A DNA stretch of 36,453 nucleotides from an uncultured Alphaproteobacteria bacterium (GTDB lineage: Bacteria; Pseudomonadota; Alphaproteobacteria; Puniceispirillales; Puniceispirillaceae). The stretch spans positions 1-36,453 of the forward strand of contig CAJWVJ010000005.1 of NCBI GenBank assembly GCA_913048595.1, in the 5' to 3' direction. The notes beneath the pieces are model-generated. The model was not told the DNA's origin, made no database searches, and was given only the letters and a program-made list of their open reading frames with translations. The position numbers were made by a program, and so were the translations under genes. This document shows positions 6,541 to 14,914 of the stretch, piece after piece (within the stretch, counting starts at the first letter, position 1; each line of letters opens with the position of its first letter).

Positions 6541-7701
6541 ATGATTCCCTTTATCGACCTTGCCGCGCAGCAGGCCCGAATTCGCGACAGGATCGAGGCC
6601 GGATTCGGCACGGTTCTCGACCATGGCGCCTATGTCATGGGGCCCGAGGTTGCTGCAATCGAGGCGCGGCTGGCAGAGGCCGCCGGCAGCAGACACTGCG
6701 TCAGCTGTTCGTCGGGAACCGACGCGCTCATCCTTGCTCTGCTGGCACAGGGGCTTCGCCCGGGCCAGGGGGTGATTGTTCCCTCCTTCACCTTCGCCGC
6801 CAGTGCCGAGGTGATGCCGGTCCTTGGCGCGGTGCCTGTCTTCGCCGAGGTTGATCCTGTTACCTTCAATCTCGATCCCGCAAGCCTGCCGGCCGCAATG
6901 GCCGCGGCACGCGAGTCCGGCATCGAGCCTGTGGGCATCATCGGTGTCGGGCTGTTCGGCCAGCCGGCGGACTATGCCGCGATCGGCGCCTTCGCCGAGG
7001 CGGAAGGGCTCTGGGTGGTGGACGACGCGGCCCAGAGTTTCGGTGCCAGCCTCAACAACATGCCTGTCGGCCAGCTTGCCGACATCACCTGCACCAGCTT
7101 CTTTCCGGCAAAGCCGCTTGGGTGCTATGGCGATGGCGGGGCTGTATTTGTGGATGATGACGCGAAGGCCGAGCTCATGCGGTCCTGCCGCGTTCATGGC
7201 ATGGGCAAGAACAAATACGAGAATATTCGCATTGGCATGACGGCCCGGCTCGACACGCTGCAGGCGGCCGTTCTGGATGCCAAGCTTGATATTTTCGAGG
7301 ATGAGCTGGACCGCCGCCAGACGGTGGCCGACCATTACGAGGCCCTTCTCGACGGGATTGCCGTGCCACCGCGCCTTGCGGCGGGCGCTACCTCCAGCTG
7401 GGCGCAGTATACGGTGAAGCTTCCCGCCGGCACCGACCGCGACGCTGTGATGGCGGCGCTCAAGGAACGGGGGGTGCCAAGCGCCATCTATTACCCGGTG
7501 CCGATGCACCGGCAGCCGCCCTATCAGTCATATCCGGTCAGCGGCTGCGGGATGGAAGTGACGGCCGACCTGTGCAGCCGGGTGCTGGCCCTGCCGATGC
7601 ATCCCTATCTGGACTACGCGCAGCAACAGCAGGTCGCCGCCGCGCTGGCCACGGCGCTTGGCAACAGCGGCGCATCCGGCGGCATGCAGGAAATCGCCTG
7701 A
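6541..7701 (+). CDS. DegT/DnrJ/EryC1/StrS-family sugar aminotransferase
   Basis: MIPFIDLAAQQARIRDRIEAGF...CSSGTDALILALLA...VPSFTFAASAEV...DDAAQSFGA...SFFPAKPLGCYGDGGAVF (PLP-lysine motif). Confidence 0.92.
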   Translation: MIPFIDLAAQQARIRDRIEAGFGTVLDHGAYVMGPEVAAIEARLAEAAGSRHCVSCSSGTDALILALLAQGLRPGQGVIVPSFTFAASAEVMPVLGAVPVFAEVDPVTFNLDPASLPAAMAAARESGIEPVGIIGVGLFGQPADYAAIGAFAEAEGLWVVDDAAQSFGASLNNMPVGQLADITCTSFFPAKPLGCYGDGGAVFVDDDAKAELMRSCRVHGMGKNKYENIRIGMTARLDTLQAAVLDAKLDIFEDELDRRQTVADHYEALLDGIAVPPRLAAGATSSWAQYTVKLPAGTDRDAVMAALKERGVPSAIYYPVPMHRQPPYQSYPVSGCGMEVTADLCSRVLALPMHPYLDYAQQQQVAAALATALGNSGASGGMQEIA

Positions 7702-7789: not shown

Positions 7790-7864
7790 GCGGGTGTAGC
7801 TCAGGGGTAGAGCACAACCTTGCCAAGGTTGGGGTCGAGGGTTCGAATCCCTTCACCCGCTCCA
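7790..7864 (+). tRNA. tRNA-Gly (anticodon GCC), CCA encoded
   Basis: GCGGGTG...CACCCGC acceptor stem, AACCT-TGCCA-AGGTT anticodon arm, GGGTTCGAATCCC T arm, TCCA end. Confidence 0.95.
7816..7863 (+). repeat. att-like direct repeat copy 1 (3' portion of tRNA-Gly)
   Basis: aaccttgccaaggttggggtcgagggttcgaatcccttcacccgctcc, identical to 10216-10263. Confidence 0.95.
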
Positions 7865-10215
7865 TTTTCCAAGATGTGAAAAAAAGCGGATAACTGGCTG
7901 GAAAGCCTGATCTTTTTCCAGTTTGTTACCCACCCTTCCCCAATATTGTTGCTGAGGGCAGTGAAGACATATTTCTATTCAGGTCAGGGTGTTCAGTGGC
8001 ATTTTGACACAATCCTGACACACAGGCTCTAATCTGCCTCAAAATTTCTTTGAGTCTTAAATCTAAACCAGTATTTCAAAGCGTACGCCGAGTACGATCA
8101 GCTTGCGTCTTGAAGGCAGATACATTCATTCCACAGAATTAAACGTTGTTTAGAGTTGTATCTGGCGTCTAAATGGGGGCTGGTTCACCAAACAATTGAT
8201 GGGTTATGGTTGGGCTAAAGTCCTGTTTTGGATCAAAAACCCGTGCTTGGCGCTTGCATAATATGACCAATTTGCAGAGATACATTAGTGTTTTGGCAGT
8301 TCACCCGTTTAAACGGGCGGCAAGGTTAATTAAGCGCCGCAGTATCATGATTCTTCAAAAGGCCTACCTTGCAGTGGCTCTCATAATGCTGGTTTCCTTT
8401 GTGGCATCTCTTGCATCATCGCTCACTCCAAACACGACTATATCAGCTCTGCTGTCCAACCAGTCCTGGGATCTTGAAGCTATGGTACAAAAGGCTTCTG
8501 ACACTCGCCCTTGGAACGACAATGGAGCCCGCTCATACGGGCCTTTGACATATCGCCTCACCAATCTGGGCGCTAGTTTTGCGCCGTATGTTGGCATGCC
8601 CGACGTAGCTTTCTTCGAACATAACGCCACAGAACCAGCGCACCATTTTTTCCTAACCATGGTCGCTGGACTCAGCGCATTGGTTGTCGGATGGGTTATT
8701 GGGTGCGCCCTAACCAGCAACCCCGCTAGTCGCTTGGTATCGGCAGTTGTTTTTGGCTCTGCCCTCCTGCAAACAAAGCCTTGGCGACACGAGCTATTCG
8801 TTGGTCACCCTGACGTAGTTATGGCGCCACTAGCTGCTGGGCTCGCGTATTTCCTGCTGAAAGGGGCTATTGAGGGACAAAGGGTGGCCAACATATCTCC
8901 TGTAAGCGTAATGCTTGGCTTGGGAATGGCAACAAAAGTCAGCTTTATTTACTTCTTGCCACCTATCATAGGCGCTTACCTATCACCAAACAGCCTGAGG
9001 ACGATCCTGCGATTAGGCTTTATCGCAGCGCTAGCTTTTCTTGTTTATATTGCAGTCGGGTTTCCGCAATCACTGTTCATTCATGAGGTTATTGGGGCGA
9101 TGCTCGATCAAAAACAGGTTCTTGCACCGGTTAACGCCGAAAGCATCTTGCGCTGGATATGGATGTTTTTTGATGTTTTTGCCCATCTAGCTGGGGTCAT
9201 GCTTTTGCTGTCAGTAACCATAGCCGACAGACCGCTGATAGCCTCAATCAGTCAGGCGTCTCGCAGAAAAATCATCGGATTTGGGATCTTGGCTTCTTTG
9301 CCAGCCTTGACAGTGATCTGCACCATGAATTTCATTCCATCATTTGTGAATTCCACGGAACATTATTCCATAAGTTTTTCTGCATATACCGTGGTTGGGA
9401 TGGCGCTTGGAATGGCTTGCCTTGTTTACAAGGTCCTCGGCCTTCTGCCTCATAAAATAGAACGCACACGGAAATTGTTGGGTCCCTTTGCTTTGGTAAT
9501 TGCCGTATATACCTCAGGCTTGGCTTCACCAGCCTACATCAACGAAACCGCCAAGGAAAATTTGAAGGGTCGCTCAGAACAAATTCAACTCATCGAAAAA
9601 ATCAATTTCTTATCAAACACTGGAGCTGTTCCTCTGATAACTCCTTATTTCCCAAATTTTCAGCTTCCTCAGCAAGAGGGACTTGGCAAAGAAAGGCTCG
9701 AGAAAGAAGCCGCATCAACTCTTGGCATTAAAAATGGGATTTTTTTGATGATTGACTGGGGCTGGTACTCACGCTTTCTTGAGGATGAGCCAAACCAGTA
9801 CGACCTCATAGATGGCTACGAAAACTGGCTTGAAAACCGCCAACTGTATACTGAACTTTTTGAAACCGGAACCATGTCTGGCATTTCATTTGAATTAATC
9901 TATCACCAAGGGAGCAGCCAAATTTGGGCTACTGACCACCTCGCAAAAGCTTATCGTCAAAAGTCATGGCGCTAGAGGTGTAAGTGATCATACGGTGCTG
10001 AAAAACAGGAAACGGGCGATTTGGGGAAGTTGTATTTGTTTGATATTTATTTCTACATGCCCAGCGTATGCATTTGAGCAAGTATGTAAAAACAGTGCAT
10101 AGGGGCAGCAACTCGGCACGTCACACAAGCACCAAGCCATGACACACTCCTGACCCACAGGGCTAATGTGGAAATATTTTCTGAGGGTATGCTTGGGTTT
10201 GAGGCCGTAGCCTAT
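7864..10215. mobile_element. Small att-bounded genomic cassette inserted at tRNA-Gly; no integrase inside
   Basis: Bounded by exact 48-bp copies of the tRNA 3' end; visibly AT-richer than the flanks; one large ORF; non-homologous inner flanks. Confidence 0.75.
8206..9975 (+). CDS. Polytopic membrane protein, GT-C glycosyltransferase-like (putative)
   Basis: 589-aa ORF with many hydrophobic segments and a hydrophilic C-terminus. Acidic/aromatic first loop (NQSWDLEAMVQKASDTRPWNDNGARSYGPLTYRL), WRHELFVGHPDVVMAPLAAGLAYFLLKG and GLGMATKVSFIYFLPPIIGAYL resemble GT39-type layouts. Start uncertain (8206, 8263 or later); no strong SD seen. Confidence 0.6.
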   Translation: MVGLKSCFGSKTRAWRLHNMTNLQRYISVLAVHPFKRAARLIKRRSIMILQKAYLAVALIMLVSFVASLASSLTPNTTISALLSNQSWDLEAMVQKASDTRPWNDNGARSYGPLTYRLTNLGASFAPYVGMPDVAFFEHNATEPAHHFFLTMVAGLSALVVGWVIGCALTSNPASRLVSAVVFGSALLQTKPWRHELFVGHPDVVMAPLAAGLAYFLLKGAIEGQRVANISPVSVMLGLGMATKVSFIYFLPPIIGAYLSPNSLRTILRLGFIAALAFLVYIAVGFPQSLFIHEVIGAMLDQKQVLAPVNAESILRWIWMFFDVFAHLAGVMLLLSVTIADRPLIASISQASRRKIIGFGILASLPALTVICTMNFIPSFVNSTEHYSISFSAYTVVGMALGMACLVYKVLGLLPHKIERTRKLLGPFALVIAVYTSGLASPAYINETAKENLKGRSEQIQLIEKINFLSNTGAVPLITPYFPNFQLPQQEGLGKERLEKEAASTLGIKNGIFLMIDWGWYSRFLEDEPNQYDLIDGYENWLENRQLYTELFETGTMSGISFELIYHQGSSQIWATDHLAKAYRQKSWR

Positions 10216-10263
10216 AACCTTGCCAAGGTTGGGGTCGAGGGTTCGAATCCCTTCACCCGCTCC
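10216..10263 (+). repeat. att-like direct repeat copy 2 (tRNA-Gly 3' fragment; no tRNA 5' half present)
   Basis: 48/48 identity to 7816-7863; preceding sequence gaggccgtagcctat is not tRNA-like. Confidence 0.95.
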
Positions 10264-10352
10264 GGTCTCCGGACTGGAACGTGAATTTTCCACGCTCTTT
10301 TCAATGATTTGCAAGCGGATCACGCGCTTGCGCACCGAAAAGAGTAGGTCAC

Positions 10353-10800
10353 ATGGTAGGTCACAATCCGCAGTTCACATACCGCAAGGACGGTGTGTTT
10401 TACTTCTCCCGACGCATTCCCAAAGACATCAGACACAAGTACGAGCATGACAGATTCGTCATGTGTCTTAGGACGAAGAGCCGTGTTGTTGCTGATAAAT
10501 CGTCCAGAGCCATTGCAGCACGTCTTGATGAATACTGGATGTCTCTGCGCATAGCGGATCTCAATATTCCATCCATGCTTCCTGTGAACGGTCAGGTCAC
10601 GACGGAAACAGTGATCACCCTGCAACAGGCTTTGCAGAATTATCATTCCCTCAAAGGTACCGGAAAGGATGATCTGTCTTGCGACAGTGCTTTCGCACAG
10701 ACATTCATTCCCGACAGGAATAATGTCACCAAGCGTCTGCCCATACCGGTCGAACATCTACGTCTGATACAGGACACATGCCGCAAGACAGACGATGATC
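10353..10800 (+). pseudogene. Decayed tyrosine recombinase / phage-type integrase
   Basis: N-terminus HNPQFTYRKDGVFYFSRRIPKDIRHKYEHDRFVMCLRTKSRVVADKSSRAIAARLDEYW is typical of integrases with a DUF6538-like N-terminal domain. SLKGTGKD joins directly to DLSCDSAFAQTFIPDRNNVTKRLPIPVEHLRLIQDTCRKTDDDLR, suggesting loss of most of the core-binding domain. The frame then becomes low-complexity RSRSRRQPTGRA, with no catalytic R..HxxR..Y domain. ORF runs to 10907. Confidence 0.78.
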
Positions 10801-10945
10801 TGCGATCGCGGTCGCGCCGGCAACCGACAGGCCGGGCCACGGCCTGTGACCCGGGATCACGCTTCAAGGACACACCGCAATCATGCTACGATTGCCAGAT
10901 GGCATGATGCCGGCGTGACGTTCACGGCAAAGAGGATGTGGTGCG

Positions 10946-11923
10946 GTGGGTGAAGATGATCTGCGCGAAGAGGTGGCAACCCTGAAGAAAGAGGTCTCGA
11001 AGCTGCGGCTGGAGACGAATCTTCGCAAATCGCTTGCCAATGAGCTGGAAAAGCAGAAAAAGGTGGCGAACACCGCCAAGGCGGAGCTTGAGGAAAAGCA
11101 CCGCAACCTGATTTCCAGCCTGAATTACGCGGCACGAATCCAGACATCCATTCTGCCGTCGCGGGCGGCACTCGACAGGCTTTTCCCTGGACATTTCATT
11201 TTCTGGGAACCGCAGAACATCGTGGGCGGCGACGCCTACTTCCTGCATCTTGCGGATATGGCAGGCAGCGGAACCCCGGCCAGTGAACCGGCGGCGGCCA
11301 AACCGAAAGCCGGGGTCTTCAGCGTCTATGACTGCACCGGGCACGGGGTGCCGGGGGCCTTCATGACGCTTCTTGGCGAACGCGCGCTGGAAACCGGATG
11401 CGGTCTTGCCGCCGCGGATGACGCCCGGGCCGGCGGCATCCTGTCCCACGTCGATGATTTTATCCGCCGTGAAGTGAATGCCGAAGACGGCACTGAGGCC
11501 AATGACGGCATGGATTGTCTTGTCCTTGATGTCGGCGCCGACGGCAGCTGCCGCTATGCCTCGGCCAATTTCACATTGTTCGGGCAGACAGCGGACGGCT
11601 TTGTCGAGCTCGAAACAGACGAGGCCAGTGTTGGCTACCGGCTCGAGGCGGGCGAGACCGCGCCGGAATTCACCACCCACCGCCTCGATCTTTCGCGGTT
11701 CAGGTCAATTGTCATCGCCTCGGACGGGATCCTCGACCAGGTCGGGGGGCCAAAGGGCCTTTCGCTTGGCAGGCGCCGGCTGACCGCCATGCTCGCCGCC
11801 GCCACACAGGCGCCCGGGTCGGCCATCCCGATCGACGGCGATGCTGTGGTCACCGCCATCCGCGACTATCAGGGGGCCCGCGAGCAGCGGGATGACATGA
11901 CGCTGATCATCCTCCCCTGCTAG
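10946..11923 (+). CDS. SpoIIE/PP2C-type serine phosphatase with N-terminal coiled coil
   Basis: Heptad-rich N-terminus; SSLNYAARIQTSILPS...FIFWEPQNIVGGDAYFL...VYDCTGHGVPGAFMTLLG...IVIASDGILDQVGG...QRDDMTLIIL. Confidence 0.85.
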   Translation: MGEDDLREEVATLKKEVSKLRLETNLRKSLANELEKQKKVANTAKAELEEKHRNLISSLNYAARIQTSILPSRAALDRLFPGHFIFWEPQNIVGGDAYFLHLADMAGSGTPASEPAAAKPKAGVFSVYDCTGHGVPGAFMTLLGERALETGCGLAAADDARAGGILSHVDDFIRREVNAEDGTEANDGMDCLVLDVGADGSCRYASANFTLFGQTADGFVELETDEASVGYRLEAGETAPEFTTHRLDLSRFRSIVIASDGILDQVGGPKGLSLGRRRLTAMLAAATQAPGSAIPIDGDAVVTAIRDYQGAREQRDDMTLIILPC

Positions 11924-11948: not shown

Positions 11949-13256
11949 CTAGTCGCGGCCAATCGAATGATAGTTCAGCCCGGCGCGCCGCATGTCGCTC
12001 GGGCGGTAGATGTTGCGAAGATCGACAAGGGTCGTGCCGCGCATGGCATCCAGATACTGCACCGGGGTCAGCGCCCGGAACTCGTTCCATTCTGTGATGA
12101 CAACCGCGATATCCGCGCCGGTCAGACACTCCACCGCGCTGCTGGTGAATGTTGTTTCGCCAGGAAGCATTGATTGCGCCTCTGCCATCGCCTTGGGATC
12201 ATAGGCGCGGATCGCCGCCCCGCCCTCGGACAGCGCGCTGATGATATCAAGTGACGGGCTGTCGCGCATATCGTCGGTTTCAGGCTTGAAGGACAAGCCG
12301 AGAATGGCCACCACCTTGCCGCTGACATCCCCGTCGGCGGCAGCGGTGACGCGCTTCGCCATCGACCGTTTGCGGCTGTTATTATAGGCGACGACCTCGT
12401 TTACGATGCCGAGACCGGCATCGTGATCCTCGGCTGTGCGCACCAGAGCCAGCGTATCCTTCGGGAAACAGGACCCGCCATAGCCTGGCCCCGGATGAAG
12501 AAACTTGTTGCCGATCCGCTTGTCCAGCCCCATGCCCCTGGCGACGTCATGGACATCCGCCCCGACCTTCTCGCAGAGGTCAGCCATCTGGTTGATGTAG
12601 GAAATTTTCACCGCAAGAAAGGCGTTGCTGGCATATTTGATCAGCTCCGAGGTTTCCAGGCTTGTCACCAGTATCGGCGTCTCGATCAGATAGAGCGGGC
12701 GGTAGAGGGCGCGAAGCACATCCTGGGCGCGTTCGCTCTCGGCGCCCACCACCACACGGTCGGGACGCATGAAATCACTGATCGCGGCGCCCTCGCGAAG
12801 AAATTCCGGGTTGGACGCGACGTCGAAATCGGCGTTCGGGCTTGTCGTCCTGATGATGGACTCGACCTCGCGGCCGGTGCCGACGGGGACTGTCGATTTG
12901 GTGACGATCACCGTGTAGCCAGTCAGGTGCCCGGCCAGTTCACGCGCCGCATCGAAGACATAGGTCAGGTCGGCATGACCGTCACCGCGACGCGTCGGAG
13001 TCCCGACGGCGATGAAAACCGCATCCGCTTCCGCGACCAAAGGACCAAGCTCGGTGGTGAAATGAAGCCGGTTTGCCGCCACGTTGCGCGCGACAAGGTC
13101 CTCAAGCCCGGGCTCATAGATCGGCATGATGCCGGCCTTGATGCTGTCAATCTTGCCGGCATCCTTGTCGATGCAGGTGACGTCGAACCCGAATTCGGAA
13201 AAGCAGGCCCCCGATACAAGACCGACATACCCCGTTCCGATGACCGCCAGCTTCAT
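11949..13256 (-). CDS. ugd: UDP-glucose 6-dehydrogenase
   Basis: MKLAVIGTGYVGLVSGACFSEFGFDVTCIDKD...NPEFLREGAAISDFMRPDRVVVG...GPGYGGSCFPKDTLAL; 435 aa. Confidence 0.95.
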   Translation of the reverse strand: MKLAVIGTGYVGLVSGACFSEFGFDVTCIDKDAGKIDSIKAGIMPIYEPGLEDLVARNVAANRLHFTTELGPLVAEADAVFIAVGTPTRRGDGHADLTYVFDAARELAGHLTGYTVIVTKSTVPVGTGREVESIIRTTSPNADFDVASNPEFLREGAAISDFMRPDRVVVGAESERAQDVLRALYRPLYLIETPILVTSLETSELIKYASNAFLAVKISYINQMADLCEKVGADVHDVARGMGLDKRIGNKFLHPGPGYGGSCFPKDTLALVRTAEDHDAGLGIVNEVVAYNNSRKRSMAKRVTAAADGDVSGKVVAILGLSFKPETDDMRDSPSLDIISALSEGGAAIRAYDPKAMAEAQSMLPGETTFTSSAVECLTGADIAVVITEWNEFRALTPVQYLDAMRGTTLVDLRNIYRPSDMRRAGLNYHSIGRD

Positions 13257-14059: not shown

Positions 14060-14914
14060 ATGATCAAGACAGCCATTTTTCCTGTCGGCGGACTTGGCAC
14101 CCGCTTCCTTCCGGCCACCAAGGCCATGCCGAAGGAAATGCTGCCGGTCGTCGACAAACCGCTTATCCAATATGCGGTGGAGGAAGCTGCCGAGGCTGGC
14201 GTCGAGGAATTCATCTTCGTCACCGGCCGCAACAAGACCGCCATTGAGGATCATTTCGACCATTCCTTCGAACTTGAGGCGACGCTGTCCGCGAAAGGCA
14301 AGGACGAGGCGCTGGATGTTGTCAAATCCATGCTGCACAATCCGGGATCGGTGATGTATGTCCGCCAGCAACAACCCGCAGGCCTTGGCCATGCCGTGTG
14401 GTGTGCGCGCCACCTGATCGGCTCGAAACCTGTCGCCGTGCTGCTGGCGGACGATTTGATCCTTGGTGCCAGCTGCGTACGAGAAATGGTGGAGTCCTAC
14501 AGCGGCGGCAACATGGTCGCGGTGATGGATGTGCCGCAGGACCAGACCGTCGCCTATGGCATTGTCACGCCGGGCGCCGATGACGGGCGGGTCGTCCAGA
14601 TTGAGGGGCTTGTCGAAAAGCCCGATCCGGACGAGGCGCCATCCAACATCGCGGTTGTCGGACGCTATATCATCACCCCCGAAGTCTTTGAAACACTTGC
14701 CGCGCAGGAGCGTGGCGCCGGCGGCGAAATCCAGCTCACCGACGCCCTAGCCAAGCAGATCGGCAGCGCCCCCTTCACCGGTGTCCGGTTTTCCGGCGAG
14801 CGGTTTGACTGCGGCTCCAAGCTTGGCTTCCTTCAGGCGAATGTGGCCTTCGGGCTGAACAATGGCACGCTGGAAGGCGACCTGCGATCCTGGCTCGAGG
14901 AGCGCTTGACGTGA
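14060..14914 (+). CDS. galU: UTP--glucose-1-phosphate uridylyltransferase
   Basis: MIKTAIFPVGGLGTRFLPATKAMPKEMLPVVDKPLIQYAVEEA. Start corrected from the ORF's 13937. Confidence 0.95.
   Translation: MIKTAIFPVGGLGTRFLPATKAMPKEMLPVVDKPLIQYAVEEAAEAGVEEFIFVTGRNKTAIEDHFDHSFELEATLSAKGKDEALDVVKSMLHNPGSVMYVRQQQPAGLGHAVWCARHLIGSKPVAVLLADDLILGASCVREMVESYSGGNMVAVMDVPQDQTVAYGIVTPGADDGRVVQIEGLVEKPDPDEAPSNIAVVGRYIITPEVFETLAAQERGAGGEIQLTDALAKQIGSAPFTGVRFSGERFDCGSKLGFLQANVAFGLNNGTLEGDLRSWLEERLT

Follow-up and report, generated by a model that had tools for sequence, protein, structure and literature searches.

Genomic islands that target tRNA genes integrate at the 3′ end of the tRNA, are bounded by direct repeats of the tRNA end and carry their integrase gene next to the tRNA-proximal junction; further elements can accrete in tandem at the same gene while the older element decays. 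Integrative elements are usually drawn with a single attP. On the yeast 2-micron plasmid, the sites of the FLP recombinase (FRT) are present as inverted repeats. This plasmid is outlined as replicating by a double rolling circle (PMC3147054), and SGI1 is introduced as an example of tandem integration (PMC2297512). Tycheposons are summarized as elements with a bordering tRNA, a tyrosine recombinase and cargo (PMC10872708), and the abstracts on strand-biased circularizing integrative elements present these as elements of marine Gammaproteobacteria with tyrosine recombinases (PMC9345347, PMC10214605).

The locus described here lies in the window, that is, the whole stretch of 36,453 nt that was analysed, from a marine alphaproteobacterium of the SAR116 type, going by the named relative L031, with a draft assembly of 135 contigs that is 69% complete. 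Behind one tRNA-Gly(GCC) gene the window harbors a 2.4-kb insert, cassette A, followed by the remains of an integrase gene from what we call element B (Table 1). Like the tRNA-targeting islands, this locus shows 3′-end integration, direct repeats, a tRNA-proximal integrase gene, successive additions and decay of the older element; unlike them, cassette A is integrase-less, element B is represented by half an integrase gene, and the intact family to which the relic belongs has an extra, inverted attachment site. With tycheposons, as these are summarized, it appears to share a streamlined marine host, the tRNA border, a tyrosine recombinase and, in the relatives, metabolic and defence cargo, but the window holds the relic and the 2.4-kb cassette only, and its recombinase is broken. 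The likeness to the 2-micron/FLP system concerns the relatives and not the window copy: two identical inverted repeats with recombinase sites would split their excised circle, one part carrying the recombinase gene, although the relatives' site, in contrast to FRT, also integrates into a tRNA gene. The strand-biased circularizing elements have the marine bacterial setting and the tyrosine recombinases in common with the relatives; their hosts differ (Gammaproteobacteria), and their abstracts mention no tRNA-derived inverted att copy. We conclude that the relic is very probably the dead 5′ half of the integrase gene of element B, in front of which cassette A was later stacked, and that B itself decayed. 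The window object alone is an ordinary relic; the striking part is the family behind it.

Table 1. Features of the tRNA-Gly hotspot in the window (positions counted from the first nucleotide of the window).
Feature	Position	Strand	Evidence or remark
DegT/DnrJ/EryC1 aminotransferase gene	6541..7701	+	Conserved left flank of the hotspot; Pfam E 1.3e-95; synteny in nearly all relatives inspected
tRNA-Gly(GCC), intact target gene	7790..7864	+	ARAGORN
att copy 1, 48 bp	7816..7863	+	Exact repeat; covers the tRNA from its anticodon stem through its 3′ end
Cassette A, integrase-less, 46.5% G+C	7865..10215	.	In G001 and G004 no cassette separates the tRNA from the relic
22-bp motif TGACACANTCCTGACNCACAGG, left copy	8005..8026	+	Two copies only in 151 genomes, both within cassette A
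589-aa membrane protein gene, the only sizeable gene of cassette A	8206..9975	+	Weak match to PMT_2 (glycosyltransferase-like), E 6.1e-5, below cut-off
22-bp motif TGACACANTCCTGACNCACAGG, right copy	10140..10161	+	Direct orientation relative to left copy
att copy 2, shared by cassette A (its right junction) and element B (its former tRNA-proximal junction)	10216..10263	+	Exact repeat; continuity in G001
Element B tail, att to integrase gene	10264..10352	+	Homologous to tRNA–integrase spacer (G001 ~95%, G004 ~76-81%)
Integrase relic	10353..10806	+	Alignment with 12 intact relatives; tblastn edges; Pfam PF20172
ORF read-through tail, non-integrase	10807..10907	+	Homology ends at 10805; G+C rises to 64.7%
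SpoIIE-type phosphatase gene	10946..11923	+	Pfam E 2.9e-12; outside the conserved backbone
ugd (UDP-glucose/GDP-mannose dehydrogenase family)	11949..13256	-	Conserved right flank of the hotspot; Pfam; adjoins tRNA-Gly in G012, G022, G033 and G009

Comparison across relatives reveals that the gene order DegT, tRNA-Gly, variable insert, ugd is kept, and that the tRNA-Gly site is an insertion hotspot. Across the order the distance from tRNA-Gly to ugd ranges from 66 bp to 75 kb (the largest in G016), and in four relatives (G012, G022, G033 and G009) the site is nearly empty, with 66–128 bp between the two. The native tRNA–ugd spacer has left no trace in the window. The SpoIIE-type gene was considered as the conserved right flank and ruled out because it is missing at the empty sites; its closest homolog is located elsewhere in G004. 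In this same genome (L033 8241-14811) the gap between DegT and tRNA-Gly measures ~6.5 kb, which indicates an insertion upstream of the tRNA as well. G027 (L135) contains two whole tRNA-Gly(GCC) genes, at 993-1067 and 14205-14279, 13.2 kb apart, rather than a partial att copy.

The preliminary description had recognized a decayed integrase beyond the second 48-bp repeat, reading away from it, and had placed the end of its protein after TDDDLR, ahead of the catalytic core; our analyses bear out both points. The ORF (10353-10907) starts 89 bp beyond the repeat, and its 184 residues give a single Pfam match, to the N-terminal DUF6538 (PF20172; E 3.5e-16; score 59 bits, cut-off 27). Intact members of the family, as in G013 (377-378 aa), combine DUF6538 with a phage-integrase catalytic domain (PF00589), which is absent from this ORF and from the whole window. 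In an alignment with 12 intact relatives, residues 1–107 of the relic align, 78 residues are then missing and residues 108–150 align again. The missing stretch is in frame, belongs to the core-binding region and puts the join at ~10671-10676, exactly where an in-frame internal join had been suspected; the tblastn edges of the homology are 10353-10676 and 10674-10805. Homology runs to residue 150 (nt 10805), just short of the ...DDMR-WLIALISDSGMRLAEA core, and all catalytic residues (R, HxxR and Y) are gone. The final ~34 residues of the ORF are unrelated to integrases and represent read-through. The end of the integrase homology coincides with a shift in G+C, from 49.5% in the relic to 64.7% immediately downstream (window mean, 61.8%). 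A compact recombinase subfamily, in which the internal join would be normal, is ruled out since 12/12 of the aligned intact relatives hold the missing segment, as is a catalytic domain in another frame nearby, there being none elsewhere in the window. Judged by these alignments, what the ORF retains are the ~150 initial codons of a tyrosine integrase of the DUF6538 type; its product is a fragment and not a working enzyme. The search for an intact homolog in the same genome, which the preliminary description had proposed, returned a sole PF00589 match that was judged XerC-like, in an assembly that is 69% complete, and the relic itself had no match in IMG/VR.

The spacer in front of the relic has homologous counterparts in G001, G004 and G013. 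Positions 10311-10331 of it form a dyad (GCAAGCG-GATCACG-CGCTTGC), and the integrase start is overlapped by two adjacent copies of GTAGGTCAC (10344-10352 and 10356-10364). Three places share the word GATGATCTG: the internal join (~10668-10676), the end of the integrase homology (~10796-10806) and the beginning of the SpoIIE-type ORF (~10953-10966). It may be the mark of short-repeat deletions or a coincidence.

Because the frame stays open across the internal deletion, and because N-terminal integrase stubs recur at tRNA genes (G001, G004, L154, L156 and L177), the 184-residue ORF might be read as a working small DNA-binding protein, its arm-binding domain having been kept as a regulator or inhibitor. 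We regard this as very unlikely. The stubs end after 13, 80 and 150 codons within one genus, with no conserved short form, and the window ORF terminates in unrelated read-through. Moreover, since deletions cannot cross the tRNA, a stub beside it should outlive the remainder of an element.

The order in which the two elements reached the site can be read from the relatives. In the congener G001, tRNA-Gly(GCC) is joined directly to relic-like sequence that is identical to window 10216-10389 at 163/174 positions, and there is no cassette. The identity spans the anticodon stem, the tail and the start of the integrase gene, which in G001 is cut after ~13 codons. G004 carries the same integrase gene behind tRNA-Gly, cut after residue 80, and the intact integrase gene of G013 has the same layout, directly behind the same tRNA. 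Since att copy 2 and the relic are thus the usual neighbour of the tRNA in G001 and G004, the 2.4-kb cassette must have been inserted later and have displaced the relic. These comparisons show stacked elements at tRNA-Gly; they agree with the preliminary description in that the element of the relic was at the site before the cassette, G001 keeping the cassette-free state, and in that its left end lies at 10216, where the window is continuous with the tail behind the tRNA in G001. "Older" here is relative to the cassette at the tRNA-Gly site only. Indeed, the relic and its G001 counterpart are ~95% identical over 118 bp and the flanking core DNA ~73%, a difference that points to separate arrivals: after their split, the two lineages were probably each invaded by closely related elements. 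Stacked integrase elements are frequent in the order.

The two copies of the 48-bp repeat are identical at 48/48 bp and have a spacing of 2400 bp. As the window comes from a draft in 135 contigs, the second repeat and its junction might have arisen through misassembly, or tRNA sequence might have been duplicated by chance. This explanation is barely credible: the repeat begins exactly at the anticodon stem and stops exactly at the 3′ end of the tRNA, and what follows copy 2 naturally adjoins the tRNA itself in G001 and G004, an arrangement not predicted for an artefact. On another contig of G001 (L248 311-359), one that leads into backbone genes, the same integrase start recurs as a second stub, 48 bp long. 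The ugd gene was not found in G001, which indicates that the hotspot has been rearranged further in this genome.

Cassette A contains no recombinase between its repeats. Its 589-aa protein has no homolog in 100 relatives, and searches with the protein, the cassette ends and the 22-bp motif yielded no helper or family among 100–150 relatives. The motif TGACACANTCCTGACNCACAGG is located near each end of the cassette and nowhere else among the 151 genomes, and its two copies are possibly arm-type sites of whatever integrase moved the cassette. The core used by the relic's family is the last 13–17 nt of the tRNA, as against a repeat of 48 nt from the anticodon stem for cassette A. Integrases of the anticodon-loop class would be expected to leave a repeat that, like this one, starts at the anticodon stem, and we infer that cassette A was inserted by another integrase that used the anticodon-loop region.

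These features also bear on a possible link between cassette A and the integrase, in which the two would form one element with an outside integrase or A would be a satellite that the integrase of B mobilised in trans. The two share a tRNA target and are adjacent, and A has no recombinase of its own. Yet in G001, G004 and G013 the integrase gene lies behind the tRNA without cassette A, the core shared within the family is 13–17 nt of the tRNA against the 48 nt of the cassette, and the cassette has no inverted repeats and ends unlike any arm of the family, nothing in common being detectable between the two. We therefore consider such a partnership improbable, and the suggestion in the preliminary description that the relic once served the cassette in trans is disfavoured by the sequence of core and ends.

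We thus favour successive arrivals, with cassette A the later. Element B would have used the 3′ end of tRNA-Gly(GCC) as its target, its att site and integrase gene coming to lie directly behind the tRNA. After B's arrival the integrase-less 2.4-kb cassette A would have entered the same tRNA via the 48-bp site, restoring the tRNA and displacing the relic 2.4 kb downstream; entry between the tRNA and B would make the second repeat both the right junction of A and the left junction of B. The decay of B would have comprised an in-frame deletion of 78 codons within the integrase gene and the loss of its catalytic half together with the remainder of B, the right att and the native tRNA–ugd spacer. 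As the preliminary description had it, the right end of B and a third att copy are lost: neither the window nor the rest of the assembly contains a third copy above the tRNA's own palindrome, and deletion would account for the missing right-end att. The foreign G+C of cassette A and its lack of a recombinase and of homologs in relatives favour stacking. Weighing against it are the at least three deletions that it requires, a right end of B that cannot be located, a host assembly of just 69% completeness, and a cassette without known relatives or a matching integrase of the anticodon-loop class, whose entry by site-specific recombination we infer. The window shows in good resolution how elements accrete at a tRNA hotspot of a streamlined marine lineage, one relative keeping the pre-insertion state, and how an integrase is recurrently lost while its tRNA-proximal stub persists.

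Just past the integrase stop codon, the intact relatives of the relic repeat the tRNA 3′ end and the tail in inverted orientation, over 57–113 bp and mostly with 97–100% identity. By a hand tally in which intactness was judged from ORF length, the inverted copy is present with ~31/37 intact SAR116 integrases (18/20 in a stricter automatic count) and ~2/8 decayed ones; the sampling was not random but followed similarity to the protein of the window, and many of the genomes are fragmented. Loci that had not been picked for an integrase served as a control, and their 330 kb contained no inverted pair of at least 45 bp within 4 kb. The window has no inverted repeat, the region for the inverted copy having been deleted, and the relic is thus a family member by integrase and spacer homology only. 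Beyond the inverted core, f′, follows a stretch, X, which recurs in inverted orientation, as X′, immediately before the next direct core. Twelve complete elements, 11 from SAR116 and one from Ruegeria sp. TM1040, have the resulting layout, f-tail-int-tail′-f′-X-cargo-X′-f. Among the SAR116 elements (L147, L148, L151, L152, L169, L173, L174, L175, L178, L180 and L185), those with a callable tRNA occupy tRNA-Asn, tRNA-Thr, tRNA-Leu and tRNA-Arg genes. In the complete elements the inverted repeats are nested and have the ~15-nt tRNA core as their overlap. The outer repeats are 93–100% identical within elements, and the repeats of each element match its own tRNA, which indicates that the copies evolve together and speaks for a function or frequent exchange.

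The same layout is found at tRNA-Phe on the closed megaplasmid of Ruegeria sp. TM1040, a cultured marine strain (NC_008043.1; L241 14908-27677), with direct cores at 14908 and 27661 and the inverted core at 16234 of L241. Here the inner repeats measure 85 bp, the outer ones are identical at 1148/1148 positions and hold two copies of a BRO-family gene, and the cargo is a type I restriction-modification system. The inner inverted pair is also present at a tRNA in two other alphaproteobacterial families (L218 and L219), and in a third (L195) an inverted pair lies next to an integrase fragment. Longer DUF6538 proteins in other members of the class had no inverted pair at the few loci covered class-wide. 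Searches for the intact family returned one close contig in IMG/VR, also with an 84-bp inverted copy around the integrase gene, distant partial matches only among phage records, and a single full-length match among plasmid records, that of TM1040. We found no description of this inverted att layout in the open-access papers searched.

The layout itself is established by the sequences of the relatives, and it suggests how the second site might act. The excised circle would hold two opposed attachment sites that separate an integrase part from a cargo part, and some cargo parts appear to include a primase/polymerase-like gene (L178 and L185). Inversion by the element's own integrase, which we take from the established behaviour of tyrosine recombinases, would flip the two parts relative to each other. 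We propose tentatively, and with somewhat less than even confidence, that the relic descends from a widespread alphaproteobacterial family of elements with this double, inverted attachment site, that the integrase flips the parts of a circle split in this way and that flipping linked to replication may amplify it via a double rolling circle. The inverted site may serve amplification, as on the yeast 2-micron plasmid, or the exchange of integrase modules. If a large family keeps a near-identical inverted second att copy, that copy probably has a role, and inversion or replication-linked amplification would then be directly testable in the cultured TM1040. In G040 (L034 8756-14457) a broken integrase gene of this family points back toward tRNA-Gly between 113-bp inverted repeats of 94.7% identity, and this locus, the one hint of inversion between the repeats, is possibly a flipped isomer; L182 (G029), where the shared repeat is only 20 bp, may be another.
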